Origin: an uncultured Mucispirillum sp. | GTDB lineage: Bacteria; Chrysiogenota; Deferribacteres; Deferribacterales; Mucispirillaceae | Length of the DNA: 64,000 nt | Reading direction: 5' to 3' | NCBI GenBank assembly: GCA_944326705.1 | Contig: CALVEY010000009.1 | Location: forward strand, 1-64,000 | Part shown: positions 7,155 to 47,404 of the stretch, piece after piece | How positions within the stretch are numbered: position 1 is the stretch's first letter | How the letters are laid out: each line of letters begins with the position of its first letter | The notes under the pieces: model-generated | Databases searched by the model: none | What the model was told of the DNA's origin: nothing | What the model saw: only the letters and a program-made list of their open reading frames with translations | Position numbers and translations under genes: made by a program

Positions 7155-7680
7155 TTAAACCTCGCTTTTCTATTACAGGTAATGCTTCTTTTAGTTCTTC
7201 ATCAAGCCTTTCACCTTTATACATTACCCACTTAGTGTTTTGTTTTGATATTTGAAAAGAGTTTTTTAAAAGCTCTTTTACAGTGGATACTCCCCTTGCT
7301 GTAATAATATCAAAACTTCTATCTTTTATGTTTTCTACCCGTGTATTTAATACTTCAATATTTTTAAGCTCTAACGCTTTTGCTGACTCTTCTAAAAATC
7401 TGCATTTTTTGCCTATACTCTCTATAAGAGTAATTTTTAATTCTGGATAAAAAATCCCAAGTACAATACCTGGAAAACCGCCGCCGCTTCCAATATCTGC
7501 TAAACTGCCCTTCGGTGATTCATACTGCTGGAAGTAGTATATACTATCATAATAATGTTTCAAGTAAAATTCTTCCTTTTCCTTTATAGCAGTTAAGTTT
7601 ATTTGACAGTTTAAATGTAATTCATAAAACTTTTCAAGCTTTTTTTCTATTATTTCTGTTGTTTTTATTAATTTATCCAT
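7093..7680 (-). CDS. rsmG: 16S rRNA (guanine-527 N7) methyltransferase RsmG
   Basis: A SAM-dependent methyltransferase that modifies G527 of 16S rRNA. The SAM motif is ADIGSGGGFPGIVLGI (about residues 60-75), followed by LIESIGKKCRFLEE and the ITARGVS region typical of GidB/RsmG. At 195 residues it is close to the family norm. It overlaps the end of mnmG by 8 nt and the start of the next lipoprotein gene by 62 nt. The mnmG-rsmG pairing is a widely conserved arrangement near bacterial origins. Confidence 0.93.
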   Translation of the reverse strand: MDKLIKTTEIIEKKLEKFYELHLNCQINLTAIKEKEEFYLKHYYDSIYYFQQYESPKGSLADIGSGGGFPGIVLGIFYPELKITLIESIGKKCRFLEESAKALELKNIEVLNTRVENIKDRSFDIITARGVSTVKELLKNSFQISKQNTKWVMYKGERLDEELKEALPVIEKRGLNVEKIRIESPITRTYCIISR

Positions 7681-9538
7681 TATTTCTCTTCTCTTTATTT
7701 ATTGCAATTTCTAATATTGATACAGCAGACATACTCATTCCTGGTATCCTTAAAGCCTGTCCTAATGTTTTTGGTCTTATTCTGCTGAGTTTTTCTCTAT
7801 ACTCCCGCCTTAAACCTGCAATATTGCTGTAATCAAAATCATCTGGTATTTTTTTATCTTCTAATGATTTATATTTTTTAATATCTTCTTCCTGCAGGCT
7901 TATATATCCTGAATATTTTATTATTGTTTCAACCTGTTTTGCTGCCCTGTCTGTAATAGTTGTTAAACCCATATCATAAAGCATATCTATATTTGTTTCT
8001 GGTCTTTTTAAAAATTCATAGCAGGATATGCCCCTGTCTAAGGATATATTATATTTTTCAAGTTTTTCTCTGTTTTCTTTAAGTCTTATTGTTTCTTTTT
8101 TAAATCTTTCTACTTCATTATATACACTTTCTTTTTCTGATAAAAACCTTTCATATCTTTCTTTAGAAATTAATCCAAACTTATAACCGTATTCCAGCAG
8201 CCTGTATTCTGCATTATCTTCCCTTAAATGCAGCCTGTATTCTCCGCGGGAAGTAAACATTCTATAAGGCTCATCTACCCCTTTTGTTACTAAGTCATCA
8301 GTTAATACACCTATATAGCTTTCGTTTCTTCCTAAGATAAATGGCTCTTTCTTATCAAGTGATAATACAGCATTAATACCAGCCATAAGCCCTTGACATG
8401 CTGCTTCTTCATATCCACTTGTGCCGTTAATCTGCCCTGCAAAATACAAGCCTTTTATTATTTTTGTTTCGTAAGTTGGGTATAATATTGTAGGCTGAAA
8501 TGCTTCATATTCTATAGCATAGGCTGGCCGTATAAACTGGCAGTTTTCAAGCCCTTTAATAGTTCTGTATGCAGCAAGCTGTGCATCAACCGGCAGTGAT
8601 GTAGAAAATCCGTTAGGATATACTTCTCTGCTGTCGTATCCTTCCCTTTCTAATATAATTTGATGTCTTGTTCTGTCTGGAAATTTTGCAATCTTATCTT
8701 CCATACTCGGACAGTATCTTGGACCTATCCCCTTATCTGCAGAATTATAGTATATACTTCTATGGATATTTTCTTTTACTATTTTATGGGTTTCTTCATT
8801 AGTGTATGTTGCATAACATTTGATTTGTGGAAGTTTAAAGCTTTTATTTTCAAAAGAAAATGGTATCTTCTCCCCTTCCATTTCATATACTTCTAATTTA
8901 GAATAATCTATTGTGCGTATATCTATCCTTGCAGGTGTTCCTGTCTTTAATCTTACAGCAGTAAAACCGATTTCTTTTAATGATTTAGATAACTCTATTG
9001 ACGGCTTTTCATAAGTTCTGCCTGCAGGAAAACTTGTTTCCCCAATAAATACTTTGCCGTTTAAAAATGTTCCTGTGCATATTATGGCTTTCCTACATTT
9101 AAAATCTTCGCCCCATATATTGCCTATGCCACATATTTCATTATCTTTTATATAAATCTGTGATACTTCACCCTGCTTAACTTCTAAACTGCTCTGGCTC
9201 ATTAAAGTATTTATCATTCTTCTAACATATATCTTTTTATCAGCCTGACCTCTTGAGCTTTTTGCTGCTGCCCCTTTTTTACTGTTAAGCATTTGGAACT
9301 GGATGCAGGCATCATCAATATTTTTTGCTATCTCTCCACCTAATGCATCTATATCTTTTACAAGATTGCCTTTTGCAAGACCGCCAATTGCAGGGTTACA
9401 GCTCATTTGTGCAATACTGTCTATTGTTGATGTTAAAAGCAGAGTTTTTGCACCCATCCTGCTTGCAGCAAGTGCCGCCTCACAGCCTGCATGGCCACCG
9501 CCTACAACTATTACATCATATATTTTATCAAAATTCAT
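7673..9538 (-). CDS. mnmG: tRNA uridine-34 carboxymethylaminomethyl synthase MnmG (copy paired with rsmG)
   Basis: The FAD-dependent partner of MnmE in forming cmnm5U34 in tRNA. The dinucleotide motif GGGHAGCEAALAASRMGA opens the protein. Both family cysteines are present, in MSCNPAIGG and in GPRYCPSMEDK, and the FAGQINGTSGYEEAACQG motif is intact. The loop usually resembling GPAVRATRAQADR reads GAAAKSSRGQADKK here, a departure not shared by the second copy at 11336-13198. The length, 621, is normal. The start has AAGGAA upstream. This is the copy in the conserved mnmG-rsmG context. Confidence 0.92.
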   Translation of the reverse strand: MNFDKIYDVIVVGGGHAGCEAALAASRMGAKTLLLTSTIDSIAQMSCNPAIGGLAKGNLVKDIDALGGEIAKNIDDACIQFQMLNSKKGAAAKSSRGQADKKIYVRRMINTLMSQSSLEVKQGEVSQIYIKDNEICGIGNIWGEDFKCRKAIICTGTFLNGKVFIGETSFPAGRTYEKPSIELSKSLKEIGFTAVRLKTGTPARIDIRTIDYSKLEVYEMEGEKIPFSFENKSFKLPQIKCYATYTNEETHKIVKENIHRSIYYNSADKGIGPRYCPSMEDKIAKFPDRTRHQIILEREGYDSREVYPNGFSTSLPVDAQLAAYRTIKGLENCQFIRPAYAIEYEAFQPTILYPTYETKIIKGLYFAGQINGTSGYEEAACQGLMAGINAVLSLDKKEPFILGRNESYIGVLTDDLVTKGVDEPYRMFTSRGEYRLHLREDNAEYRLLEYGYKFGLISKERYERFLSEKESVYNEVERFKKETIRLKENREKLEKYNISLDRGISCYEFLKRPETNIDMLYDMGLTTITDRAAKQVETIIKYSGYISLQEEDIKKYKSLEDKKIPDDFDYSNIAGLRREYREKLSRIRPKTLGQALRIPGMSMSAVSILEIAINKEKRNNG

Positions 9539-11335: not shown

Positions 11336-13198
11336 TTATTTCCTGTTTTTATTGTGCTTATAAATTTCAACTGCTAAAACAGAGATTGCAGTTTTTGTAA
11401 GCCCTGGTATTCTTAAAGCCTGCCCTAATGTTTTAGGTTTAATTTCTTTTAACTTATCAGAATATTCTAACCTTAATCCTGAAATATTGTCATAAGAAAA
11501 ATCATCTGGAATAACTATGCTTTCTATATCTTCCTTATTATTTTCTTCCATACTTTCTATATAGCCAGAATACTTGATTTTAATTTCAACCTGTCTTGCT
11601 TTTCTGCCGCTTAAGCCACCGCCAGTTAATTTTATTATATCATCATAACTTAACTGTGGTCTTTTTAATAGCTCTTCTGCTTTAAACGACTGACTTATAC
11701 TTACTCCAAATTTTGCAAGATATTCTTCGTTTTCTGGTGTTTTCTTAATCAGTGTTGTTTTAAGCCTTTCTATTTCATTATTAATATCCTGCATATCCTG
11801 CTGAAATCTTTCATATCTTGTTTTAGAGATAAGACCTAATTTATACCCATACTCTATAAGCCTTTCTTCTGCATTATCTTCTCTAGTTAAAAGCCTGTAT
11901 TCGCTGCGGGAAGTAAACATTCTATATGGCTCTGTAATACCTTTTAATACTAAATCATCAGTAAGAACACCAATATAACTTTCATTCCTGCCTAAAACAA
12001 ATGGCTCTTTATTATCAAGTGAAAGAACTGCATTAACCCCTGCCATAAACCCCTGCACTGCTGCTTCTTCATAACCGCTAGTGCCGTTTAGCTGACCACC
12101 AAAAAATAAACCTTTTATAAGTTTAGTTTCATAAGAGTGATTAAGCCCTGTTGGCTGGTATGCATCATACTGGATAGCATATGCTGGACGTATAAACTGG
12201 CAGTTTTCCATTCCCTTTACTGTTCTGTATGCTTTTATCTGTGCTTCTACAGGTATAGAACATGAAAAACCATTTATATGTACTTCTTTTGTTTTTAAAC
12301 CTTCCGGCTCAATTACAAGTTTATGACCAGTTTTTTCTGGGAATTTAAGAACCTTATCTTCCATACTTGGACAGTATCTAGGGCCATTACTTTCCCTTGC
12401 TCCGTTATAAAACAAGCTTTTTTCAGCTGCTTCTCTTATAACCTTATGGGTTTCTTCATTAGTCTGTGTGCCGTAGCATTTTATTTGAGGAAGATTTATA
12501 GATGCAGTTTCTGCAGAAAAAGGAATCATTACATCATCGCTTACATACTCTTCAAGACCATTTAAATTTAAGCTGTCAATATGAAGCCTTGCAGGAGTAT
12601 CTGTTTTTAATCTGACAGGATTAAAGCCTATTTTTTTAAGAGAAAGAGAAAGACCTGTTGCTGCAGGCTCATACATTCTGCCTGCTTCTATAACTCTATC
12701 CCCTATAAATATTTCACCACCTATAAATGTGCCGCCACAAATAACAATTCTTCTTGCAAGAAATGTTTGACCGCATGCAGTTTCTACACCACGAACTGCA
12801 CCATTTTCCACAAGTATTTCTGTAACTATACCCTGCTTAACATCAAGGGATGGAGTATTCATTATTACAGTTTGGAACCTGTCTTTATATAAGTGCTTAT
12901 CAGCCTGAGCTCTGCTGCACCATACCGCAGGTCCTTTTCTTTTATTTAAAACTCTAAACTGTATACCTGTTTCATCAATATTTTTTGCCATTTCTCCGCC
13001 AAGAGCGTCCATATCTTTTACCAGGTTACCTTTGCCTATACCGCCAATAGCAGGATTACAAGGCATTAAAGCAATATTATCAATAGAGATTGTAAGCAGT
13101 AAAGTATCTGCCCCCATTCTTGCAGCAGCAAGCGATGCTTCACAGCCTGCATGACCTGCGCCAACAACTATAACATCGTAAATTTTTTGAAAATCCAT
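11336..13198 (-). CDS. mnmG: Second, divergent MnmG paralogue
   Basis: A full-length (620 aa) MnmG/GidA homologue: GAGHAGCEASLAAARMGA at the N terminus, cysteine motifs PCNPAIGGIGKG and GPRYCPSMEDK, and FGGQLNGTSGYEEAAVQG. Its GPAVWCSRAQADK loop is closer to the usual family sequence than that of the rsmG-linked copy, while RLKTDTPAR replaces the normal RLKTGTPAR. It has its own ribosome binding site (AAAAGGG) and terminator, stands alone, and is flanked by a parS site on each side. It could be the main tRNA-modifying enzyme, a specialised paralogue, or a functionally redundant copy. Both copies keep the family's two cysteines. Confidence 0.9.
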   Translation of the reverse strand: MDFQKIYDVIVVGAGHAGCEASLAAARMGADTLLLTISIDNIALMPCNPAIGGIGKGNLVKDMDALGGEMAKNIDETGIQFRVLNKRKGPAVWCSRAQADKHLYKDRFQTVIMNTPSLDVKQGIVTEILVENGAVRGVETACGQTFLARRIVICGGTFIGGEIFIGDRVIEAGRMYEPAATGLSLSLKKIGFNPVRLKTDTPARLHIDSLNLNGLEEYVSDDVMIPFSAETASINLPQIKCYGTQTNEETHKVIREAAEKSLFYNGARESNGPRYCPSMEDKVLKFPEKTGHKLVIEPEGLKTKEVHINGFSCSIPVEAQIKAYRTVKGMENCQFIRPAYAIQYDAYQPTGLNHSYETKLIKGLFFGGQLNGTSGYEEAAVQGFMAGVNAVLSLDNKEPFVLGRNESYIGVLTDDLVLKGITEPYRMFTSRSEYRLLTREDNAEERLIEYGYKLGLISKTRYERFQQDMQDINNEIERLKTTLIKKTPENEEYLAKFGVSISQSFKAEELLKRPQLSYDDIIKLTGGGLSGRKARQVEIKIKYSGYIESMEENNKEDIESIVIPDDFSYDNISGLRLEYSDKLKEIKPKTLGQALRIPGLTKTAISVLAVEIYKHNKNRK

Positions 13199-13311
13199 AT
13201 AAACCCTTTTTTAAAAAAATTTGATGATTATAATAATTTTTTTTATTGATTTTGTAAAGAAATTAATTAGATTTGTTCTATTTTGAAAGCTGATGAATAG
13301 TAAAATGGAAA

Positions 13312-13870
13312 TTAGAATCTATTTTCTTCAGTAATAAATAAAGAACTTTTTAATGTTTCACGTGAAACATTAAAAAAATATTTAAAATAAACATTCATAA
13401 AAACAACCACAACACTATAAGATATTATACCTAATACAACTTCAAAAATTATTTTAGATTGAATTGGATAAAGGAAAGAATTTTTTGCAATATCAGAATC
13501 AGAATAATAATTAGAATGAGTAAACAAAACAGCTAAATTCATCAAAAAAGTTTTATGACGGTCTTTTTTACATGTACTATATAAAATTTAGAATCAGTAG
13601 GATTTATTCTTTTTCCATATCTCAGATTAAAGTATGTTTCACTAATAAAAGCTGCAATTAAAAATAAAACAAAAAGATGTTCATAAGTGTATAAATAAAA
13701 ATCAGATGAAGAAAAAGAACAAATAAAGTTTATAAAGCTAATAACAAATAAAGTTAAAAAAAAAGAAAAACAATGTATATAAAAAAGTATAATTATATAT
13801 AAAAAATAAAACGAAAATATAAAAGTATATACAAAAAAAGTAATTAAGAATATAATAAGCAGAATAAAGG
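13312..13870 (-). pseudogene. Probable decayed membrane-protein gene in the 678-bp gap 13199-13876
   Basis: Two consecutive open minus-strand stretches read as membrane protein. The upstream one (about 13870-13544) is Phe/Ile/Leu-rich, contains no Met or other plausible start codon, and ends in KTVIKLF-stop at a TGATG. The downstream one (ATG 13542 to 13312, 76 residues) has one helix, IISYSVVVVFMNVYFKYFF, and ends FNVSRETLKSSLFITEENRF. No ribosome binding site precedes either. The simplest reading is a degraded gene; a short functional protein from 13542 is possible. The segment 13199-13311 is AT-rich leader of the second mnmG with no further feature seen. Confidence 0.35.
13354..13369. promoter_or_regulatory. 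parS: parS site 2
   Basis: A second perfect TGTTTCACGTGAAACA palindrome, 2.1 kb from the first and on the other side of the second mnmG. It falls inside the decayed minus-strand frame, where it encodes VSRET. Confidence 0.95.
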
Positions 13871-13876
13871 TGAAAA

Positions 13877-14560
13877 ATGATTGAAAAAGATATAAAAAAC
13901 GAAAGGATGATGGGTCCTGATTCTTATATCATAATAGATGAGCTGTTAAAAGAAAAAGTAACAGATGAAAAAATAAGGATATTAGATTTAGGCTGCGGCA
14001 AAGGGCTCACATCAATATATTTAGCAGAAAAATATATAAATGCAGAAATATTTGCAGTAGATTTATGGGTGGAAGCAAAAGATAATTATATATTTTTTAA
14101 AGAAAATAATTTAGATAACAGAATAATACCACTAAACTGCAGTGCAGAAAAACTCCCTTTTGCTGAAAACTATTTTGATATAATAGTAAGTGTAGATTCA
14201 TACCACTATTTTGGATTAGATAAAGATTTTTTTAAATATAACATAAAACCACTGCTTAAAGAAAAGGGAGAAATATATATAGCAGTGCCTGGACTTAAAG
14301 ATGACTATGAAGAAGTGCCGAAAGATTTAGAGCATCACATAAGCGAAGATGATTTTAAATTTTTTAAAAGTATAAACCACTGGGAAAATCTGCTGAAAAA
14401 AGATTTAAAAAAAATAAAAGTGCAGGAAATGAAATGTTTTGATGAAGCATGGCAGAGCTGGCTAAGCTGTGATAACCCTTATGCAGTAGAAGATATAGAA
14501 TTATTAAAAGCAGATGATGGAAAATATTTAAACTTAATAGCAGTGAAAGGTAAAATTTAA
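13877..14560 (+). CDS. Class I SAM-dependent methyltransferase
   Basis: A 227-residue cytoplasmic protein with a clear Rossmann SAM-binding motif ILDLGCGKGLTSIYLAEKY (around residues 35-53), an acidic strand-2 end (IFAVDLW), and a motif III-like DIIVSVDSYHYFG. It most resembles the UbiE/methyltransferase-11 group acting on small molecules; the substrate is unknown. The start is preceded by AAAGGTGAAA. An AT-rich hairpin (TTAAAATTTG at 14566-14575 pairing with CAAATTTTAA at 14584-14593) lies just after the stop and may be a weak terminator. Confidence 0.85.
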   Translation: MIEKDIKNERMMGPDSYIIIDELLKEKVTDEKIRILDLGCGKGLTSIYLAEKYINAEIFAVDLWVEAKDNYIFFKENNLDNRIIPLNCSAEKLPFAENYFDIIVSVDSYHYFGLDKDFFKYNIKPLLKEKGEIYIAVPGLKDDYEEVPKDLEHHISEDDFKFFKSINHWENLLKKDLKKIKVQEMKCFDEAWQSWLSCDNPYAVEDIELLKADDGKYLNLIAVKGKI

Positions 14561-22684: not shown

Positions 22685-25060
<2,376 letters not shown>

Positions 25061-25069
25061 TTATTATAT

Positions 25070-26080
25070 TTATTTTATATTTATAACATTTTCAAAATTA
25101 AGCCGAGTATTATCAACACCTGTGTATAAAACTTGTCTGTTATTTGAAAAAATATTTTTTATAAATTCAGCACGCTTTTTATCAAGAGCAGCTTCAAAGT
25201 CATCTAAAAGAGTTATTATACTTATTTTTCTGCTTTCTTCAATAATTTTTATGAAGCTGTATAAGCAAAGCAGTATAAATGTTTTTTTCTGACCTGTTGA
25301 TGAAAACTTTTCTATAATTTTTTCATCAAGGCACATTTCTATTTTATCACGATGGACGCCATATAATGACTTTTTCATAAATTTTTCTTTATTTAGTAAA
25401 GATGTGTCTGAAATATTACTGGAATAATTTATAAAAACATTTTCCATGGTGAAATCTAAACTATTGTATAATTCTTTTAGATTTTTATTAACCTCATCAA
25501 TAATTTTAACCCGTTTACTGGATATTTTATTTGAAAGATATACTATTTTTTCATTTAATACATCTAAATATACCATATCAGATGTATCTTTATCAAATTC
25601 TGCCTGTTTTTGTGATAAAAGCCTGTTGTAATGCTTTACATCATATATATGTTCTTTATCATAGTAAAAAATAAATCTGTCTATAAAATTTCGCCTGTCC
25701 TGCTGGTCTTTAGATAATATACCCAGCATTTCAGGAGTATAACATGCAACAGGGTGATTATATACATAATCTGCAATATCTTCTATATCTTCCCCATTAA
25801 CCATTGTTATTCTTTTATTTTTAAATAAACATACTGCATCACTAATAAGCGAGCCGTCTTTTATTTCACTTTCTATTCTGAAAAATTCTTCATTAAAAGT
25901 AACAGCTGATGATAAAGGCTGTTTTTTAAAACTTCTAAGTCCAAATAATATATATAATGCCTCAAGTATTGTTGTTTTACCTGAGCCGTTTTCGCCTATA
26001 AACAGTGTTTCATTACTAAGCTCATAAAAAGAGTTAGTATGGTTTCTTAAATTTATAAGCTTTAAATTTGATGCATACAT
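25070..26080 (-). CDS. recF: Recombination/repair protein RecF
   Basis: An SMC-like ATPase that helps load RecA at single-strand gaps with RecO and RecR. The Walker A motif is FIGENGSGKTTILEALY (about residues 28-43) and the C-terminal Walker B/D-loop is ITLLDDFEAALDKKR. A signature-like SSTGQKKTFILLCLY precedes it. The length, 336, is a little short of the usual 350-370 but all motifs are present. It starts 3 nt after dnaN. A degraded copy of its 3' third lies upstream of dnaA at 28935-29296. Confidence 0.94.
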   Translation of the reverse strand: MYASNLKLINLRNHTNSFYELSNETLFIGENGSGKTTILEALYILFGLRSFKKQPLSSAVTFNEEFFRIESEIKDGSLISDAVCLFKNKRITMVNGEDIEDIADYVYNHPVACYTPEMLGILSKDQQDRRNFIDRFIFYYDKEHIYDVKHYNRLLSQKQAEFDKDTSDMVYLDVLNEKIVYLSNKISSKRVKIIDEVNKNLKELYNSLDFTMENVFINYSSNISDTSLLNKEKFMKKSLYGVHRDKIEMCLDEKIIEKFSSTGQKKTFILLCLYSFIKIIEESRKISIITLLDDFEAALDKKRAEFIKNIFSNNRQVLYTGVDNTRLNFENVINIK

Positions 26081-26083
26081 TTA

Positions 26084-27196
26084 TTATATTTTATCAATAG
26101 ATATAGGCACTACTAAATATCTGTAATTACTTTCACTTGGAGTAATTAAAACAGGTGAGCGTTTGTCACTCATTTCAAGTGTAAAATCTTCTGTTTCAAT
26201 AATATTTAGTATTTCATTAACATGCCTAGCATTTAATATTATTTCAAAGCTTTCTGAGTTAAAATCTAAAATATCTATAACTTCAGAGCCTTCGCCATAT
26301 ATTGTTTCAAGGCTGGACATTTTAAGTACAGAGTTGTTAAATTCTAATATAATACCTGGTGTTTCTTCACTTGTAATAGCAGAAACCCTTTTAGATGCTT
26401 CTATAAATGATTTCCTGTCTATCTTAGCTTTTACTGGGTATTTATCAGCCATAAAAAGCCTGTCTATATTTTTAACAAACTTTTCTATTAATTTAGAATA
26501 TACTGTAATATTATCAGCTTTAAAAGAAATCTGCCTTCTATCAGTTTCTATTTCTATTAAACCTTTATTTTCAAAAACTCTAATAATTTCTGAAACTGTT
26601 TTCTTAGGTATATTAACTGTAAAATCATTTGAGTATTCTGTATCAAATTTAGCAGATGCTATTGCTACTCTCTGCATACCTGTTGCAGAAATTTCAAGCA
26701 TATCTCTGTTTACAGTAAACTGAGCACCAGTATATTCAAGTTTTTGGGAATCATTTAATATACAAAATACAGTTCTTTTTAATAAGGTAATTAAATCAGC
26801 TGAATTAATCTTAAGGAAATATTCTGGTATAATTTCTCCTATAGATGGAAAATTTTCAGATGGTATTGTAGAAAGCTTAAATTTAGATTTGCCGCATATA
26901 ACATTTAATCTTGTATCATCATACTGAAAATCAATTAATGCTCCATCAGGTAATTCTTTTATAATATCTAAAAGCTTTCTGCAGCTTACAGTAATTCTTC
27001 CTTCCTGCTCTACGTTATGAACTTCAAAATTACATGAAAAGCCCATTTGATAGTTGGTTGCTTTTATATTAACCATATTGTTTTCTGCTTCCATGTAGAT
27101 GTTTTGAAGAATATCATTTAAGCCTTTAGGGTTAGTAAAGCTGTTAGCATACTGTAAGTATTTTAATATGTCTTCTTTAACGACTGAAAAATGCAT
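26084..27196 (-). CDS. dnaN: DNA polymerase III beta sliding clamp
   Basis: The ring-shaped processivity clamp of DNA polymerase III. At 370 residues it has the expected three-domain length. Family landmarks include GRITVSCRKLLDIIKELP, IPSENFPSIGE and the C-terminal PVLITPSESNYRYLVVPI (usual form PxxM). It lies downstream of dnaA across the probable oriC and 3 nt before recF. Confidence 0.95.
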   Translation of the reverse strand: MHFSVVKEDILKYLQYANSFTNPKGLNDILQNIYMEAENNMVNIKATNYQMGFSCNFEVHNVEQEGRITVSCRKLLDIIKELPDGALIDFQYDDTRLNVICGKSKFKLSTIPSENFPSIGEIIPEYFLKINSADLITLLKRTVFCILNDSQKLEYTGAQFTVNRDMLEISATGMQRVAIASAKFDTEYSNDFTVNIPKKTVSEIIRVFENKGLIEIETDRRQISFKADNITVYSKLIEKFVKNIDRLFMADKYPVKAKIDRKSFIEASKRVSAITSEETPGIILEFNNSVLKMSSLETIYGEGSEVIDILDFNSESFEIILNARHVNEILNIIETEDFTLEMSDKRSPVLITPSESNYRYLVVPISIDKI

Positions 27197-27541
27197 AATT
27201 ACCTCATTAGTTATAAGCTAAAAAATTATTCTGCTTATATATATAAAAGTTTGTTATTGTTATTGAGCTGTGGATAACTCAAACAAGTATTAAAAATTAT
27301 ATATTTTATAATAAATTTTAGCAATAATAAATTGTTATTCTAAACTAAGATTTTAAAAAAAATATTATAAAATTTCAAGAATTTTGTTTAAATATATTCT
27401 AATATTCCAAAAATATTACAAATTAGTCACACAGGTTATAAAAAGAATTAATGTGTATAACTTTGATAACTTTATAAGTTATTAATAAATAAAGTAATTA
27501 TAATATGATAACCTGTGGAAAACTTTTTAATAACATTAGAG
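27197..27541. other. oriC: Probable oriC (dnaA-dnaN intergenic region)
   Basis: 345 bp of very AT-rich DNA between dnaA and dnaN, a common origin position. A perfect DnaA box (TGTGGATAA, 27269-27277) is accompanied by two one-mismatch boxes: TGTGTATAA (27452-27460) and TGTGGAAAA (27514-27522), all in the same orientation. The AT-rich stretch 27290-27420 is a candidate unwinding element. Two perfect parS sites 14-16 kb away and the adjacent gyrase genes fit an origin-proximal position. A second origin half upstream of dnaA is not obvious because that side is occupied by duplicated remnants. Confidence 0.75.
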
Positions 27542-28909
27542 TTATCTTTGGAAAACTTTCATCCTGTTTGAAAGTTCTTTTAAAGTATTAACTGTATAGT
27601 CATTATTAGCTGCTATTTCTTTATCTATTTTATTGATTGAGTTTTTTATTGTAGAGTGGTCTCTTTTAAATATTGCACCAATAGAAGCTAAAGATGACGG
27701 CGTATTTTTATAAATAAGATATATCGCCATATTTCTTGGTATAACAATATTTACTGACCTGCTTTTAGACTGCATATCAACAAGTTTTATATTATAATAA
27801 TCACATACAATCTGAATAATTTCATTAGGAGAAATAACCCTGTCCCTTTGCAGAAAGAAGTTTTTAAGCTCACTTTGGATATAATCAACAGTTATTTCCA
27901 CATTATAAAGCTGTCCCTTAACTACTATAGTGTTAATTACACCAAGTAAATCTCTTGTGCTGTCTGACTTAATATTTTCAGCTACAAACTTAATTACTTC
28001 ATCTTTAATATAGTATTTATTTATTTTTAAATAGTTTTCTATAATGGCTATTTTTTCATCAACTGATGGAGTACCTATTTCCACAATTAAACCGCTTTGA
28101 AAACGGCTTGAAAGACGCCTGTCTAAGTCTATTATATCATCAGGCAGAGAGTTAGATGTTAAAATAATCTGCTTGTCGTTACTGTAGAGCTTTGAAAAAA
28201 GAAAGAAAAACTCTTCCATTGTAGCTTCGCCTCTTGATATAAACTGCACATCATCAAAAAGAAGTACATCTGTATTTTCATATTTATTATTAAATTCATT
28301 TAATCTGTTTGATTTTAAAGAGTTTAAAAATTCTCTCAAATAAAGCTCACCTGTAACACAAAGCACATTTTTTTTAGGAAAATTAATGCGCATATAGTTA
28401 CCTACTGCATGCATAAGGTGTGTTTTTCCAAGACCTACATCACCATGGATATAAATAGGGTTATTAAGCCTTTCAAAACCTTTTGCAGCATTCATACATG
28501 CAGCATAAGCAAACCTGTTAGATTTACCTGCAACAAATGTTTCAAAAGTATACTGCTTGTTTAAAGGTACACTGTAATAATCATTATTATAGTTATGCTT
28601 GTCCTCTTTTTCTTCAGCTAAACATGCAGATTTATCCTTTTCTGATTCTGTATTTCCTTTTAATGTTATTTTAATATTTGCATCAATAATATGGAAAGCA
28701 TTTTTTAAAAGCTCTTTTAAATAGTCAATATAATGGTCTTCCACCCACATTTTTATATATTTATTTGGAGCTTCTAAAGTGATAGTATTAGCTTCAATGG
28801 ATACAGTTTTTAAATCCTTAATCCATTTTAATATTTCTTCATCTGTGATTTTTTCTTTGATTTCATTAAAAATATGCTGCCAGGATGCAGCTTTATTATT
28901 ATTTGCCAT
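27542..28909 (-). CDS. dnaA: Chromosomal replication initiator protein DnaA
   Basis: The AAA+ initiator that binds DnaA boxes and opens oriC. Domain I lies at the N terminus, a short polar linker at about residues 85-115, then the AAA+ domain with Walker A GDVGLGKTHLMHA (about 156-168), Walker B VLLFDDVQF and RRLSSRFQSGL. The C-terminal DNA-binding domain carries the signature FKRDHSTIKNSINKI. The length, 455, is typical. The ATG at 28909 has a good upstream GGAGG. A mutated copy of its first 30 or so codons is present at 29304-29404. Confidence 0.97.
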   Translation of the reverse strand: MANNNKAASWQHIFNEIKEKITDEEILKWIKDLKTVSIEANTITLEAPNKYIKMWVEDHYIDYLKELLKNAFHIIDANIKITLKGNTESEKDKSACLAEEKEDKHNYNNDYYSVPLNKQYTFETFVAGKSNRFAYAACMNAAKGFERLNNPIYIHGDVGLGKTHLMHAVGNYMRINFPKKNVLCVTGELYLREFLNSLKSNRLNEFNNKYENTDVLLFDDVQFISRGEATMEEFFFLFSKLYSNDKQIILTSNSLPDDIIDLDRRLSSRFQSGLIVEIGTPSVDEKIAIIENYLKINKYYIKDEVIKFVAENIKSDSTRDLLGVINTIVVKGQLYNVEITVDYIQSELKNFFLQRDRVISPNEIIQIVCDYYNIKLVDMQSKSRSVNIVIPRNMAIYLIYKNTPSSLASIGAIFKRDHSTIKNSINKIDKEIAANNDYTVNTLKELSNRMKVFQR

Positions 28910-28934
28910 ACTTATCCTCCATTATATATTAATT

Positions 28935-29296
28935 TTATTTTATAATATTTTCAAAATTAAACCTAGTATTATCAATACCTGTGTATAAAACTTATCTTTA
29001 TTTGAAAAAATATTTTTTATAAATTCAGTCAGCTTCCTGTTAAGAGCAGCTTCAAAATCATCTAAAAGAGTTATTATACTTATTTTTCTGCTTTCTTCAA
29101 TAATTTTTATAAATATGTATAAACAGAGCAGTATAAATGTTTTTTCTAGCCTGTTGATGAAAATTTTCTATTATTTTTTCATCAATGCATATTTCTATTT
29201 TATCACGATAGACGCCATATAATGACTTTTTCATAAATTTTTTTTATTAAGTAAAAATGTGTCTGATATATTGCTGGAATAATTTATAAAAATATT
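28935..29296 (-). pseudogene. Degraded duplicate of the recF 3' end
   Basis: These 362 bp align closely with the last 370 bp of recF (25070-25442) by eye. They include the stretch encoding SIITLLDDFEAAL and the terminal NFEN-stop. Small indels break the frame, for example at the MKKSLYG position and in the TGQKKTF region, so no RecF fragment can be made. It sits between dnaA and the dnaA 5' fragment, on the same strand as intact recF. The intact recF stop is followed by gyrB; here it is followed by dnaA. Confidence 0.9.
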
Positions 29297-29303
29297 GTTT
29301 CTG

Positions 29304-29404
29304 TTTTAATATTTCTTCATCTGTGATTTTTTCTTTGATTTCATTAAAAATATGCTGCCACAGGATGCATCTTTATTATTATCTGCTATGCTTATTCTCC
29401 ATTA
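29304..29404 (-). pseudogene. Degraded duplicate of the dnaA 5' end
   Basis: About 100 bp nearly identical to the first 28 codons plus ribosome binding site of dnaA (28826-28924). The start codon has become ATA and two bases are inserted near codon 9, so it is not translatable. It abuts the recF remnant directly, with dnaN missing in between, as expected if a duplicated dnaA-dnaN-recF unit lost its middle by deletion. Together with the recF remnant it accounts for most of the 499-bp gap 28910-29408. Confidence 0.9.
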
Positions 29405-29408
29405 AAAA

Positions 29409-30323
29409 TTAGAAAAAGGCAGAAATATCTATTCCTGCAGAATAACCGATACCTGTGCTGTTATTATTAAATAACTGCACCTGTGTTGATACATAGTTGT
29501 GACCGTCTATTATAAATTCCACATAAGGACTTATTCTGACTATATCCTTTATTGTAAGGCTGTATCTAAAACGAGCAGCTATTCTATCTACATAATATTT
29601 TTCCTGCTCACTGTAATATACATCTTTTATAAGTCTTGAAAGTTTATACATATCATTTTCCATTTCAAACTGGAACTGGAAAACATTACTTTTATTCACC
29701 CCAAGGTTAAGTGAAAAAAATACATCAATAACAGGGACATATTCAAGCTCTATTGATGAATATTTTAAAAAATCCACTTTAAAGTAAGTTAAAGGAAGCC
29801 CAAATATTACATTTACACCAGGCTTATTATATTCATATCTTATAACTGGAAGCGGATAACCGTCTAAAAAATCCCTGCTTGTAGAATATTCTACACCTAG
29901 ATAAAGCCTTGAATAATAAGGCAGTGCTTTTCCTTTTATATTTTCATATTCTGTAACATGCTGAAATATTCTAAAAGCATAAAACACATCAAAATCAAGC
30001 AAATTAAGAGATGTAAAAGGCTTATCACTGGCAGAAGTCAGACCAAAGCCTGCCCAGTGGCTGCCTGCTTTATATCCATAAGTTAATCCTACATGAGATA
30101 AAGTATCCTGGCCTAAAACCTGCCTGAATTCATACCCAAACTGATGAGGCGTGCTTGTATGAAGCCCTGAAACTTCTATAGTATGTGTATCATAGTTTGC
30201 AGTATCAAGCCACCTGTATTTTACATCAAGCCCTTCATAAGGCTTATATAAGGCATTAGATGCATAACTGTTAAAAGATATTAATAATATAACAAATAAA
30301 AAGAATATCTTTTTATTCATCAT
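29409..30323 (-). CDS. Probable outer-membrane beta-barrel protein (304 aa)
   Basis: The signal peptide MMNKKIFFLFVILLISFNSYAS is followed by a sequence of alternating hydrophobic and polar strands with many aromatic residues (for example SHWAGFGLTSASDKPF, FRYSLTIKDIVRISPYVEF). It ends in GIGYSAGIDISAFF, a terminal Phe typical of barrel insertion signals. No specific porin family was recognised. It overlaps the upstream PEP-utiliser-like gene by 11 nt; ATG 30323 and 30320 are both possible, with AGGTAG just upstream. Confidence 0.68.
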   Translation of the reverse strand: MMNKKIFFLFVILLISFNSYASNALYKPYEGLDVKYRWLDTANYDTHTIEVSGLHTSTPHQFGYEFRQVLGQDTLSHVGLTYGYKAGSHWAGFGLTSASDKPFTSLNLLDFDVFYAFRIFQHVTEYENIKGKALPYYSRLYLGVEYSTSRDFLDGYPLPVIRYEYNKPGVNVIFGLPLTYFKVDFLKYSSIELEYVPVIDVFFSLNLGVNKSNVFQFQFEMENDMYKLSRLIKDVYYSEQEKYYVDRIAARFRYSLTIKDIVRISPYVEFIIDGHNYVSTQVQLFNNNSTGIGYSAGIDISAFF

Positions 30324-41307: not shown

Positions 41308-44166
41308 ATGAAGCTTGTTAAAATGTTTTGCTCAATATACACTACAATTGTGTTATTAGCAATTTATGCCATACTGTGTGCAGCAGCTACATTTATAGAA
41401 GCTGATGCAGCATACGGCATACAGGCAGCACAGGATATGATTTACCGCACAACATTATTTAATATTGTGCATATTCTTCTGCTGCTTAATCTTATTGCAG
41501 TTTTTGTATATAGAAAAGTATGGAAGTCAAAAAAATACTACAGCATAATACTGCATGTGTCTTTTATTATTATTTTATTAGGTGCAGCATTAACAAGATT
41601 TTTTGGCTTTGAAGGTGTTGTACATATTAGAGAACAGCATTCATCTAATGTAATTATTACTGATGAAGAATACTTAAATATAAGAGTAGCTGTTGAAGAT
41701 AATATCTACTATACAAATATTCCTGTCCGCTATAACAGTGTAACGCAGACAAAATTCCATGAAAAAATACCTTTAAATGATTCTGAACTGGAAGTAAAAT
41801 ATAACTCATATACTCCAGGGGATAAAAATACTCCGCCACATATTAATGTAACAGCATCATATAATGGTGACAGTAAAACAATGGATTTACCACAAAGCTA
41901 TCTTGATGCAAATATTGGTGAAACATTTGAACTTGGTGGAATGTATTTTCAGCTTGTATGGGGCCCGGCAGAAATACCTGTGCCTTTTGAAATGTATTTA
42001 GAAGATTTTATATTAACAAGATATCCTGGCTCACAAAGCCCGTCTTCTTATAAATCAAAAATATTAGTTACAGATTATGATGATAACTCAAGCTTTGGAT
42101 ATGAGATATTTATGAACAATGTATTAGATTATAAAGGATACAGATTTTTCCAATCATCTTATGACCCAGACGAAATGGGAACAATTTTTAGTGTTAATAA
42201 AGACCCTGGCAAAATCCCAACATATATAGGATACTTTTTATTAACTGTTGGTTTTATCCTTTGTTTCTTTGGCAAAGGAAGCAGAGTATGGAGATTAAGC
42301 CATTATCTTAAAAAACAGAAATTATATGTTTATTTTATAGCTTTTTCATCATTTTTATTAATGTCTGCATCTAACCTTTACGCTGCAGATAACTTTGCAG
42401 AAAAAGATAACTGGATAGAAGTTGCTTATGCTGCTAATATGGGGCAGAGTGATAATACAACTGTAGATGAACATGCAGAACATGTGCCGTCACAGGAAGA
42501 AATTGATGCATTAATAAAAAATATTTCTGGAAAAATGCAGGCTCATTCTGAAATTGCAGGCAGATTGCTTGTGCAGGATATGCAGGGCAGAATTAAACCG
42601 CTTGATACTCTTGCTATGGATATGGTGCATAAATTACTTAGAAAAGATGATTTTAAAGGTATGAACCATGTGGAAATCTTTTTAGGTATGATGATGTATT
42701 ATGACTATTTTCAGCATATTAAAATGTTTCCAACAAGCTCTGAAGAGTTAAGGGAAAAACTAGGCACTCCAAAAGATGAAAAATATGTTTCCTTTGCAGA
42801 TGCTTATGATGCTAATGGACAGTATAAACTTAAAGATTATATTGATGCAGCATATCAGTCTAACCCTGCTCATAGAACTAAATTCCAAAAAGATTTAATC
42901 AAGTTTGATGAGAAAATGGGTATAGCATACTATATGTATACTGCACAGATGTTTTTAGTATTCCCTGATATTACAGGCAAAACTACAGGCTTTTTATCTC
43001 CTGGCATTGCAATGGCTTCTTTTGATAAAGAAAATACATTAAAAATACAGGATTTATTACAGAAGTATTTTGAAGGCGTTGATAAAGGCTTAAAAGAAAA
43101 CAACTGGCAGGATGCTGATAAATATTTAGGTTTAATCAGCGAATTTCAAAGAACAAATGGTGCGCACCTTATACCAGCAGAAAGCCGTATAAGTGTAGAA
43201 ATAATGATGAATAAATATAACCCATTTAAAAACTTAACTTACCTTTATGTTTTACTTGGTATTGTAATGTTTATTTTCGTTATTACTGCCATTATTAAAA
43301 ATAAACCAGTAAACAGCACAGCAGGCAGAATATTTACTGGCATAACAATATTAGCGGTAGTTCTGCACACTGCAGCCTTAATATGCAGGTGGTATATTGC
43401 AGGGCATGCTCCATGGAGTAATGCTTATGAGTCTATGATATATATTGCATGGGCAGGCGCATTAGCTGGTCTTTTATTCTTCCAAAGGTCACTTTTAGCT
43501 ATTGCTGCTACTAACTTTGTGGCAGGTATCACATTATTTGTGGCAAACCTTGGCTTTATGGACCCTCAAATCGGCACATTAGTTCCAGTATTAAAATCAT
43601 ACTGGCTGAATATTCACGTATCAGTTATTACAGCAAGTTACAGCTTCTTTGGATTATGCTTTGTGCTTGGTATTATCAGTATGGTTCTTTTTATTTTAAG
43701 AAGTCCAAAAAGAGCACATATTGACCAAAGTATAGTTAATGTTCACTGTATTAATGAAATAAGTATGCTTTTTGGTTTAGGTCTGCTTACAATAGGTACA
43801 TTTTTAGGCGGTGTATGGGCAAACGAAAGCTGGGGCAGATACTGGGGCTGGGACCCAAAAGAAACATGGTCGCTTATTACTGTTATTGCATATACAATAA
43901 TACTTCATGCAAGACTTGTTAAAAAATTAAACAACCCTTATATATTCAGCGTATTAAGCACACTTGGGTTCTATACTGTAATGATGACATATTTTGGTGT
44001 AAACTATTACTTAGCAGGTATGCACTCTTATGCATCAGGCGAGCCAATACCTATACCAACATTTTTATATGTAATGGTTGCACTTCATATTGCTTTAATA
44101 GCAGTATCTTTTATGAAAAGAAAACTTGATATGCCGGTATTTAATTCAACAGATAAAGGTATATAA
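41308..44166 (+). CDS. Fused ResB-CcsA (CcsBA) cytochrome c haem lyase
   Basis: A 952-residue integral membrane protein of system II cytochrome c maturation. The N-terminal third is ResB/CcsB-like (four helices and a large periplasmic domain, up to about residue 340). The C-terminal third is CcsA with six or more helices, the WWD-type motif GGVWANESWGRYWGWDPKETWSL (about 832-856), and conserved His residues including LHTAALICRWYIAGHAPWSN. It exports haem and ligates it to CXXCH. In Wolinella a dedicated haem lyase of this type is needed for the long CXnCH site of MccA, so this copy may serve the CX17CH site at 34974-36944. Confidence 0.92.
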   Translation: MKLVKMFCSIYTTIVLLAIYAILCAAATFIEADAAYGIQAAQDMIYRTTLFNIVHILLLLNLIAVFVYRKVWKSKKYYSIILHVSFIIILLGAALTRFFGFEGVVHIREQHSSNVIITDEEYLNIRVAVEDNIYYTNIPVRYNSVTQTKFHEKIPLNDSELEVKYNSYTPGDKNTPPHINVTASYNGDSKTMDLPQSYLDANIGETFELGGMYFQLVWGPAEIPVPFEMYLEDFILTRYPGSQSPSSYKSKILVTDYDDNSSFGYEIFMNNVLDYKGYRFFQSSYDPDEMGTIFSVNKDPGKIPTYIGYFLLTVGFILCFFGKGSRVWRLSHYLKKQKLYVYFIAFSSFLLMSASNLYAADNFAEKDNWIEVAYAANMGQSDNTTVDEHAEHVPSQEEIDALIKNISGKMQAHSEIAGRLLVQDMQGRIKPLDTLAMDMVHKLLRKDDFKGMNHVEIFLGMMMYYDYFQHIKMFPTSSEELREKLGTPKDEKYVSFADAYDANGQYKLKDYIDAAYQSNPAHRTKFQKDLIKFDEKMGIAYYMYTAQMFLVFPDITGKTTGFLSPGIAMASFDKENTLKIQDLLQKYFEGVDKGLKENNWQDADKYLGLISEFQRTNGAHLIPAESRISVEIMMNKYNPFKNLTYLYVLLGIVMFIFVITAIIKNKPVNSTAGRIFTGITILAVVLHTAALICRWYIAGHAPWSNAYESMIYIAWAGALAGLLFFQRSLLAIAATNFVAGITLFVANLGFMDPQIGTLVPVLKSYWLNIHVSVITASYSFFGLCFVLGIISMVLFILRSPKRAHIDQSIVNVHCINEISMLFGLGLLTIGTFLGGVWANESWGRYWGWDPKETWSLITVIAYTIILHARLVKKLNNPYIFSVLSTLGFYTVMMTYFGVNYYLAGMHSYASGEPIPIPTFLYVMVALHIALIAVSFMKRKLDMPVFNSTDKGI

Positions 44167-44170
44167 TAAA

Positions 44171-44202
44171 ATACCCCAGTTTAAATTCTTAAACTGGGGT
44201 AT
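44171..44202. terminator. Bidirectional terminator
   Basis: Perfect 14-bp arms ATACCCCAGTTTAA (44171-44184) and TTAAACTGGGGTAT (44189-44202) with a 4-nt loop, placed between the convergent CcsBA gene and the minus-strand barrel gene. AT-rich flanks could serve either strand. Confidence 0.85.
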
Positions 44203-44232
44203 TAATAAAAATATCATAGAATAATATTTTAC

Positions 44233-44982
44233 TTAAAATCTGTAACCTGCTTCTATACCAAACTTAACATTATTAAGCACTGGGTTATGCGGATTATTGT
44301 ATGCATTAGAAGAATTATGTTGCATAAGAATATAATCTAATCTTAACCCTGTATATATATTATTTTTAAAATTATATCTTAACCCTGCTTGAAATAAGAA
44401 ACCTAATCCATTATTTAAGTCTTCTGTTATAATATTAGTTCCAGAAGTAGTATCTTTTTCAGTTATTTTATTTGAATAAAGAGTAAAACCTAAACCAGCC
44501 CATGGAACAAAACCAGATTCACCTCTTTTTGTTTCATATTGAAAAATAATAGATGGGCTTAATGTAAAAAGCGACATATTTCTAGTATATTTCCCTGTAA
44601 TACCAGGTTGTCCTGTATAAACAATATTTGTAATATCTGTTTCAGGAGAACCGCTAATAGATAAATCCAAACCTATTGCAAGCCATCTTTTAAGATTAAT
44701 TTTTCCATTAAAGGATATACCACCGCCGTGATTTACTGGATATTTTACTCCAAGAGTTTCTACACCAGCTTCAATAGTTTTACCATTTCTTCCAGGTATA
44801 ATTGCATCATAATAAACAAATAAACCAGCAGTAATACCATATGGCAGTTCTCGTTTATACTCATCACTTATCCAAGAACGGTTATTTGCACTATCATCTT
44901 CACTTTTTTGCTGAGCAAATGATTTTTCAATAAAACTTCCAAAAATAGAAAATAAAACTATAAAATAAAATATTTTTTTCAT
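44233..44982 (-). CDS. Outer-membrane beta-barrel protein (OmpW/OmpA-barrel-like)
   Basis: A 249-residue protein with a signal peptide ending KSFAQQ, alternating amphipathic strands (GGGISFNGKINLKRWLAIGLDLSIS, WAGLGFTLYS, GLRYNFKNNIYTGLRLDYILM) and a C-terminal FGIEAGYRF, the aromatic ending typical of barrels. The small size suggests an eight-stranded barrel. The ribosome binding site is GAGGTG. No closer family assignment was possible. 44983-45239 is AT-rich with only the terminator listed next. Confidence 0.72.
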   Translation of the reverse strand: MKKIFYFIVLFSIFGSFIEKSFAQQKSEDDSANNRSWISDEYKRELPYGITAGLFVYYDAIIPGRNGKTIEAGVETLGVKYPVNHGGGISFNGKINLKRWLAIGLDLSISGSPETDITNIVYTGQPGITGKYTRNMSLFTLSPSIIFQYETKRGESGFVPWAGLGFTLYSNKITEKDTTSGTNIITEDLNNGLGFLFQAGLRYNFKNNIYTGLRLDYILMQHNSSNAYNNPHNPVLNNVKFGIEAGYRF

Positions 44983-45191
44983 TAATACACCTCATAATAA
45001 AAAATAAATTCGTAATAAATACATAATTATATATGGCAGGTATTCATAGTTATGCAATTTTTAGAAAAAATAAATACAAATATTATACTATCAACAAAAT
45101 TTTTACATAAAACATACAGGATAATAAATTTAATATAATTTATATATATCTGTTTAAGAATAATATTAATTAGATATAAGATATAGAACAT

Positions 45192-45223
45192 AAAAAAACC
45201 TCTGCCCACTTTAATGGGCAGAG
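45192..45223 (-). terminator. Terminator of the C11 protease gene
   Basis: CTCTGCCCA (45200-45208) pairs with TGGGCAGAG (45215-45223), followed on the minus strand by a run of seven T (plus-strand A at 45192-45198). It lies 17 nt past the stop at 45240. Confidence 0.88.
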
Positions 45224-45239
45224 TAAGTATTATAATAAA

Positions 45240-47404
45240 TTAATTAAAAGTTGTTTGTTCAGCAGTAATATAAGGGTCGTCATTTTTAACATTATTAATA
45301 TTAAATCTGAATTTTGGTGTTTCAGATGCTTCAAAAGGAACAATATTGAATTCCACACATTTTTCACTGCTGCATGTTATTGTATAAGATGGCAGATTTG
45401 CATTAGTCTCAGCTCTGCCAGTTACACTGCTATAATCTGGAATAGTAATTATATCTCCAGCTTGAAAACTAAATGGCATAGCAAGCTCATCTTTGTTATC
45501 TTGGTCTGAGAAGGTTGTATCATGAATTATATATTTACCATCTTCTTTACTATATCTAAAAGTTGCCAGCAGCTTTTTATTAGGTGTTTCTCCTTCTCTT
45601 GTAAGCAGTAATAAAGTTTTTGCAACAGTATTAGTTGCGTTAAAGTTATCGATAGATTTTTTTATTACAACTCGAATAGGGCTGTAATCTGTTGTACCAT
45701 AAGGCGCTATAGCAAATAAATTGGCATCAATTGTCTGCTCATATCCAGTATCAACTGTTATTGTATATTTGTAATTGTCAGGATTTTTATCTGGAACTGC
45801 AGTAATCATATAATCACCTTCAACTGTTCCTATTCTTGTTGCGCCATTATCATATGTTCTAACTAACTCTAATGTAGAATTATAACTTGGAGCAAAGTTA
45901 CTTGTATAATCTATTGAATATTTTGTACCATCTTTTCTTATAGTGGATACATCTATCGATGTTGCTGTATTAACTCCATATTCAGTGATATTATCAAGCA
46001 TGCTTATATATTCATCACTAAAATTTGATACTTTACCGCTGTATAAATTTACAAGGCATCCAAGATCAGTCAAATGCATACAGTCTTGAAAATATGGCAT
46101 CTGTTCAAAATTTGGTGCGTAAAAAGATATTCCATAAGATTCTGATAGAAATGGTGATGTTTTATTAATTTTTACAGAATTACTAATAATATCAGTAATG
46201 TTTTGGTTATATGATGAATAATCTAAATCATACCATGTTGTATCATTAAGGCTGTTTATAACTGACTGTAAATCATATAAACCATACCCTCCTTCACCAT
46301 AATTATTTGAGCGAGAAAGAGCAACATAAAAGTTATTAAATGTTTTTGCAGGGTCAGCTTTATAATCGTCTGCAATTTTTTTTGATAACTCTCCTAATGC
46401 ACCGCTGAGAGCTTTTACTTGTTTTAAATCAACTGCAGAGATATTAGTTGCTTGTTTACCATTTTTTGCAGAATATTGATAATAAGTAGATGTAATAGTA
46501 TCTAAAAGCTGCTCAGTTGTATAGTTTTGAGCTATACCGCTTGTAATATCACCTAAAAGCCAAGGGAAACCAGTTTCTCTTTCCTCTGAAGCAACATAAT
46601 ATTTACCGTAGTCTGATAAACCATGCATCCATTCAGCTGTTCCCATAAGGCAGGCAGCAAAACCAATAATATCAAATTCTGCATTAGTTTTAGTTTTTGC
46701 TATATTAAAAGCTTTTTGCATTTCAGGTAAAGTTGTGCCAGAACCAAATCCATTGATTGAGCCACCACCATGGCTGAAAAAGATAACTATATATCTATCT
46801 GCAGGGTATTTCTCCACACCATAAGTTAAGAAATCACCAATTGTATCACCAGAATTTATATCTACACAATTTGTATCAGTAATATTCATACATACAGAGC
46901 CTTTATTTTCAAGTAGTTTGAGTCCTTCGTCTTTTGTAATCTGCCATCTTGAAACTTTAGACCAGTCTTTTAAATAGTATTTTGCAGGGTCTGCACCAGC
47001 TTCTGCTATCTGTTCATCAGTCCATGTCATATTTGGCTCTTTAGAGCCTGTTTGGATAATAATATTAGTGTTTTCAGGGTTTAAATTTTCAATCATTCCT
47101 TTAATCATATAGTTGGCAGGACCATATCCTAAAGCATCAGTTTTTATGCCTTCACTAGTATATTCATCAAAAAATATATTTGCAACTTTTGGATATTCAT
47201 AGGTAGTCCCTTCAATATACATTAAAACTGTTGTTTTAATAGGTGTTGCAGGTTTAGAATCAGACGAGTCATTATTGCTGCTTGATTTTGAAAGAAATAT
47301 CGTCTAGGATTGTTACAGTTGCAGGTTTAGAATCAGACGAGTCATTATTGCTGCAGCCAGCTGCAATAAATAACGCAAATAAAATTATTAAATATTTCTT
47401 CATA
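45240..47404 (-). pseudogene. Clostripain-like (C11) protease lipoprotein gene, out of frame through a direct repeat
   Basis: The 660-codon body (45240-47222) is a C11/clostripain-family cysteine peptidase with catalytic His in IVIFFSHGGGS and Cys in IIGFAACLMGTAEW, plus a C-terminal beta-rich region. Its first ATG at 47222 has no signal peptide. Upstream, from ATG 47402, a perfect lipoprotein signal (MKKYLIILFALFIAAGCSNN) runs in a different frame and stops after about 43 residues. The cause is a 37-bp direct repeat (47245-47281 and 47318-47354) that adds 73 nt. Removing one repeat unit restores a single frame, GCSNNDSSDSKPATPIKTTVLMYIEG. It is therefore switched off, recently broken, or phase-variable. 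Confidence 0.75.
47245..47354. repeat. 37-bp direct repeat pair in the C11 protease signal region
   Basis: Copies at 47245-47281 and 47318-47354 are identical over 37 nt and separated by 36 nt. The offset of 73 nt is not a multiple of three, and stops occur within the spacer. Recombination or slippage between the copies would remove 73 nt and join the signal peptide to the protease body. Confidence 0.92.

Follow-up and report, generated by a model that had tools for sequence, protein, structure and literature searches.

Introduction

Tandem duplication at the replication origin is recorded in BCG. BCG Pasteur carries DU1, a 29.7-kb tandem duplication, and the strains having both DU1 and DU2 hold two copies of oriC; DU2 itself is described as a tandem duplication that later lost 64 kb from its interior by deletion (PMC2448323). 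In BCG strain 3281, the dnaA-dnaN region is present three times (PMC4395146). Because of DU1, DU2 and strain 3281, the kind of event that we propose here is already known.

The locus described in this study is a scar of about 0.5 kb that lies directly upstream of the intact dnaA gene in an uncultured Mucispirillum species. In our reading, it resembles DU1 as a tandem duplication at the origin and DU2 as a duplication followed by internal deletion; however, the DU1 and DU2 copies are recent, large and intact (PMC2448323), whereas the 0.5-kb remnant is decayed and present in two species. With strain 3281 it would share tandem dnaA-dnaN copies at the origin, but those copies are recent and are not described as decayed (PMC4395146). 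What is new is an old, decayed scar, with the same junctions, that is common to two species. Duplicated pseudogenes in general are truncated, frameshifted copies adjoining their parent; unlike them, the scar has hardly changed between two species that are diverged elsewhere. Searching the open-access literature on dnaA-dnaN-recF duplication, dnaA or recF pseudogenes and Mucispirillum recombination, we found no report of the scar. The scar preserves, in still legible form, the trace of a duplicated initiator gene and a probable origin. Since it is nearly unchanged in two species that differ at about one quarter of their silent sites, we also take it to mark gene exchange right at the origin locus.

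Results

Two decayed gene ends lie upstream of dnaA

The window, meaning the whole 64,000-nt stretch analysed, corresponds to contig C9. The draft genome (G000 hereafter) has 2.39 Mb in 79 contigs, and the nearest relatives of it that carry a name are Mucispirillum MAGs. Read along the minus strand, the window has orf618, then orf304, the scar, dnaA, dnaN, recF, gyrB and gyrA. The dnaA (27542-28909, 455 aa), dnaN (26084-27196, 370 aa) and recF (25070-26080, 336 aa) genes are all intact and on the minus strand; recF was named from its place and size, its Pfam match being only that of an AAA/SMC-type ATPase, and gyrA from its position and sequence. On the other side of the scar is orf304 (29409-30323, minus strand), a conserved gene without a Pfam match that adjoins dnaA in scar-free relatives. 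The next gene, orf618 (30313-32169), likewise has no Pfam match and is conserved before dnaA in the genus, as compared in six genomes. The cumulative GC skew reaches its minimum at 28-32 kb, and the dnaA-dnaN spacer (27197-27541, minus strand) holds matches to TTATNCACA, the DnaA-box consensus, at 27269 and 27452. From these matches and the skew, the spacer is the probable oriC.

Comparing the scar with its own genome by BLAST, we recovered 25057-25441 (E 3.1e-144, 90%) and 28826-28931 (E 2.3e-37, 92%). The former match corresponds to recF' (28930-29303, minus strand), a decayed copy of the terminal ~370 nt of recF that carries frameshifts and in-frame stops and is 90.6% identical to the recF 3' end. 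The latter corresponds to dnaA' (29304-29411, minus strand), which comprises a decayed dnaA leader and the first ~28 codons, is 91.7% identical to the dnaA 5' end, and has its frame shifted by a TG insertion near 29361-29362. A repeat search gave the same registers, with a spacing of about 3,857 nt for the recF copies and 478-480 nt for the dnaA copies. Both repeats are real, their similarity being far above chance. The start codon of dnaA' is ATA (29389-29387, minus strand). The first-pass annotation had described mutated copies of the recF 3' end and the dnaA 5' end upstream of dnaA, the minus-strand order dnaA'-'recF-dnaA and a duplicated start codon changed to ATA; all of this was borne out, its coordinates being right to within a few bases.

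The part of dnaA' with the start codon and ribosome-binding site is 86% identical to dnaA, and 57 nt (29304-29360) are identical to dnaA (28826-28882). At the rate of change seen in recF', such a block would stay unchanged with a P of about 0.02; gene conversion or chance is needed to account for it. The same 57-nt identity is present in both scar species.

At the internal-deletion junction between dnaA' and recF' (29296-29304, minus strand), the parent genes share ATGGA and the scar reads ACAGA. The reading frames of the two genes mismatch at this join, which rules out a DnaA-RecF fusion. At the tandem-duplication junction (28925-28935, minus strand), the recF 3' end is joined to the dnaA leader at a TAAT-like stretch of both spacers, blurred by decay. 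Being short and partly decayed, these microhomologies are suggestive only. Overall, the scar consists of two truncated parent-gene ends in direct orientation and head-to-tail order, as in a duplication remnant.

The scar is shared by two species

Among ten genomes of the genus, the scar was found with identical junctions only in G000 and in G003, a separate Mucispirillum MAG of another species that has the same arrangement with few private differences. The other eight are scar-free, with a gap of 4-26 nt between orf304 and dnaA, and this state in the relatives points to a gain in the scar species. One of the eight, G002, is without a match to the recF 3' end, and its scar-free state may also represent a loss. 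In all ten genomes, orf304 lies directly before dnaA.

We extended the comparison to 39 genomes, G000 included, with one genome per species. A second DnaA N-terminal fragment occurred only in G000 and G003, and so did a second, stop-ridden copy of the RecF C-terminus; a RecF match of any kind was obtained in 36 of the 39, the sensitivity of the search dropping with distance. An intact second dnaA-dnaN-recF, which the first-pass annotation had proposed to look for in related genomes, was present at full length in neither the 38 relatives nor G000, so the full duplication is something that we infer. That annotation had also taken the locus for a visible intermediate. Since two of the ten genus genomes have the scar with essentially the same decay, it is instead an old scar and no passing intermediate.

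recF' decayed before the two scars separated

Between recF' and recF, 29 of 353 sites differ; in the tree-region count of recF', the first 12 and last 14 columns beside the junctions were dropped. Sixteen changes could be polarised on the recF' branch common to both species. They fall at codon positions 1, 2 and 3 in 9, 4 and 3 cases, respectively, and 13 of them are GC>AT. Because of this spread and of frameshifts common to both scar species, we conclude that the recF' coding frame was under no selection on the shared branch; reading frame and codon-position bias have been lost, as in a pseudogene. The shared branch measures 0.066 substitutions per site, and the distance between G000 and G003 at fourfold-degenerate sites is 0.30, or 0.15 per lineage (Jukes-Cantor). 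On that scale, which assumes equal mutation rates in the scar and at fourfold sites, the duplication is younger than the split of most of both genomes, and very little time has passed since the two scars parted.

In pairwise alignment, which gives the figure used here, recF' of G000 and G003 differs at 5 of 372 sites plus five gap columns; the MAFFT multiple alignment gives a higher count (13/373) because MAFFT avoids gaps. At fourfold-degenerate sites of the same region, 1315 of 5365 differ (24.5%; binomial P 9e-38 for recF' against this rate). The low-divergence tract runs from ~29370 through the scar to ~28736 inside dnaA. In its dnaA part, 6 of 194 sites differ, compared with 12/175 to 20/172 for the other pairs among G000, G002, G003 and G006; the extension into dnaA (6/194 vs 12/175) is only suggestive. 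Divergence is higher in the outer ~40 nt of dnaA' (6/41 sites and a 2-nt indel; Fisher P 2e-4 against recF').

A duplication followed by an internal deletion is the likely history

We consider it likely that the locus is a non-functional scar of a tandem duplication that suffered an internal deletion and a later interspecies exchange, and this is our best explanation. The order, the orientation and both junctions support the first-pass proposal of a tandem dnaA-dnaN-recF duplication that lost its middle. The duplicated segment would have reached from the dnaA leader to a point just beyond recF, and would have contained dnaA, the probable oriC, dnaN and recF; illegitimate joining in an ancestor would have produced the two tandem copies. 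A deletion at the 5-nt microhomology ATGGA would have removed the upstream copy from dnaA codon ~28 to recF codon ~213. The second oriC copy would have gone with it, so that dnaA, dnaN and the probable origin were each present once again. What was left would then have decayed without protein-level selection, and homologous recombination between close species may have spread the tract (about 28736-29370) or made its copies more alike.

The two events could also have come in another order. A deletion on one sister chromosome, followed by unequal exchange or template switching with the intact sister, would produce the scar in one step and with no full duplication that lasted, and it agrees with this order that the end product alone is seen, an intact duplication being present in 0 of the 39 genomes, G000 included. 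However, two breakages within one cell cycle would be needed, and the recorded route, that of BCG DU2, is duplication and then deletion (PMC2448323). We regard the one-step order as unlikely.

A regulatory role of the scar is doubtful

The scar might now be functional, serving as a new dnaA leader or promoter with a putative DnaA box for autoregulation and being held by purifying selection. The 5 differences in 372 sites, set against 24.5% at fourfold sites, would fit such a role. We also noticed a match to the DnaA-box consensus, TTATACACA, in recF' (28980-28988, minus strand), about 70 nt before the dnaA ATG, which is kept in both scar species, and a promoter-like match (10/12) on the dnaA strand at 29100-29073. 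All four TTATNCACA matches of the 64 kb are situated at the origin locus (25121-28988): the dnaA-dnaN spacer has two, and the recF 3' end and the scar have one each.

Several observations stand against this role. Neither the box nor the promoter-like match was selected de novo, since both were copied from recF coding sequence; the parent TTATACACA lies in the recF 3' end (25121-25129, minus strand), where it encodes part of RecF, is also found in G003, G006 and G009, and is absent at that place from G001 and G005. Across the window, TTATNCACA occurs at chance frequency (4 matches vs 5.2 expected). The 80-kb stretches of G003 and G006 contain several further matches away from the origin, so that the clustering in the window carries less weight; it may be due to chance. 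The count of promoter-like matches in 1 kb (13 vs 7.6, sd 2.3) covers both strands and proves nothing. Moreover, the low divergence is spread evenly over the scar, continues into dnaA and is found in other tracts, and frameshifting indels are among the differences. We therefore hold a functional scar to be doubtful; the comparison suggests that exchange is likelier than retention for a reason as the cause of the near-unchanged sharing.

A short protein from dnaA' was ruled out, as no frame is common to both species (TG insertion in G000, ATA in both). Nothing in the window reached the gathering score of an Rfam family, and the scar itself gave no Rfam match even with E values up to 1 allowed. 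A single weak match, to AsdA (E 0.042; 24.8 bits vs 52), falls inside dnaA at 28367-28447.

The mutated start codon probably hinders loss of the scar

As direct repeats, dnaA' and dnaA have a spacing of 478 nt. dnaA is an essential gene, and its next in-frame Met is codon 54. Recombination within the identical block would lose recF', but dnaA would then be preceded by the ATA start and, in G000, by the TG frameshift as well. A deletion via the repeat would destroy the real start codon of dnaA and so damage an essential gene, and for this reason the ATA start probably keeps the scar locked in; loss prior to the ATA mutation would have been harmless. The scar would thus have been kept in part because dnaA'/dnaA recombination yields an ATA-start dnaA, frameshifted in G000. 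This provides a simple, testable reason for the survival of a scar: once the start codon of the upstream repeat has mutated, deletion through the repeats does harm. One could go further and suppose that the dead scar, supplying a DnaA box and perhaps a promoter, was recruited as a dnaA leader, altered the control of initiation, and was spread among Mucispirillum species and selected while ATA blocked its loss. Judged from the sequence, we find this improbable.

Exchange between the two species most likely explains the low divergence

Returning to the presumed exchange of the scar, we analysed the ancestry of recF' in an alignment that left out G004 and G008, the latter having its recF 3'-end match on another contig. 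In the best tree, recF' groups with the recF of G003 (65% support), and these two alone share three bases (alignment columns 662, 813 and 909). Two independent duplications were rejected (p-AU 4e-64), and a single origin of the scar is strongly favoured. An origin of recF' from the recF of G000 itself was rejected as well (p-AU 0.0098); an origin from a G003-like recF was best, and one from a recF ancestral to the two genes was compatible (p-AU 0.21). The recF genes of G000 and G003 are themselves unusually similar: they differ at 11 of 357 sites in the scar segment, and over the whole gene by 3.8%, compared with 11.9% between G000 and G006.

For the four closest species, different genes give conflicting trees: that of orf618 pairs G002 with G003 (97%), and that of dnaA pairs G000 with G003 (81%). 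The high identity of the scar is not unique, since G000 and G003 are at least 98.6% identical in 4 of 132 non-overlapping 372-nt windows, and further tracts of at least 98% identity to G003 exist elsewhere in the window. Because the gene trees conflict, such tracts exist and recF' is nearest to the recF of G003, recent recombination between the two species most likely explains the low divergence of the scar. The source was probably the lineage of G003, the direction being weakly resolved. One observation is awkward for exchange: ATA is common to both species, yet it lies within the diverged part of dnaA'. If the transfer ended inside dnaA', either the same G>A change happened twice or a shared older ATA is needed.

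If G000 and G003 had simply inherited the scar from their common ancestor, and it had decayed neutrally with no exchange, the common junctions and ATA would be accounted for, and the two genomes do pair weakly in the concatenated tree (62%). At the fourfold-site rate, however, ~90 differences are expected in recF' and only 5 were observed, so this course is rejected as highly improbable unless the scar is constrained. Near-identical repeats do assemble poorly and the draft is in 79 contigs, but the same arrangement with private differences in the separate G003 MAG of another species makes misassembly very unlikely.

Two of the tracts near-identical to G003 were inspected. The stretch 12951-14033 is mostly intergenic and 98.2% identical to G003, while G006 aligns to it over 651 nt at 86.9% identity; no RNA family and no tRNA were found in it. 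The stretch 44111-45243 is 98.8% identical to G003, has almost no match in G006 and looks like recently exchanged DNA. It includes an outer-membrane beta-barrel gene (44233-44982) with 0 of 94 fourfold differences to G003 and adjoins a clostripain-family C11 peptidase gene (45240-47222). The window also holds two MnmG/GidA paralogues, both intact, close together and on the same strand (7673-9538 and 11336-13198).
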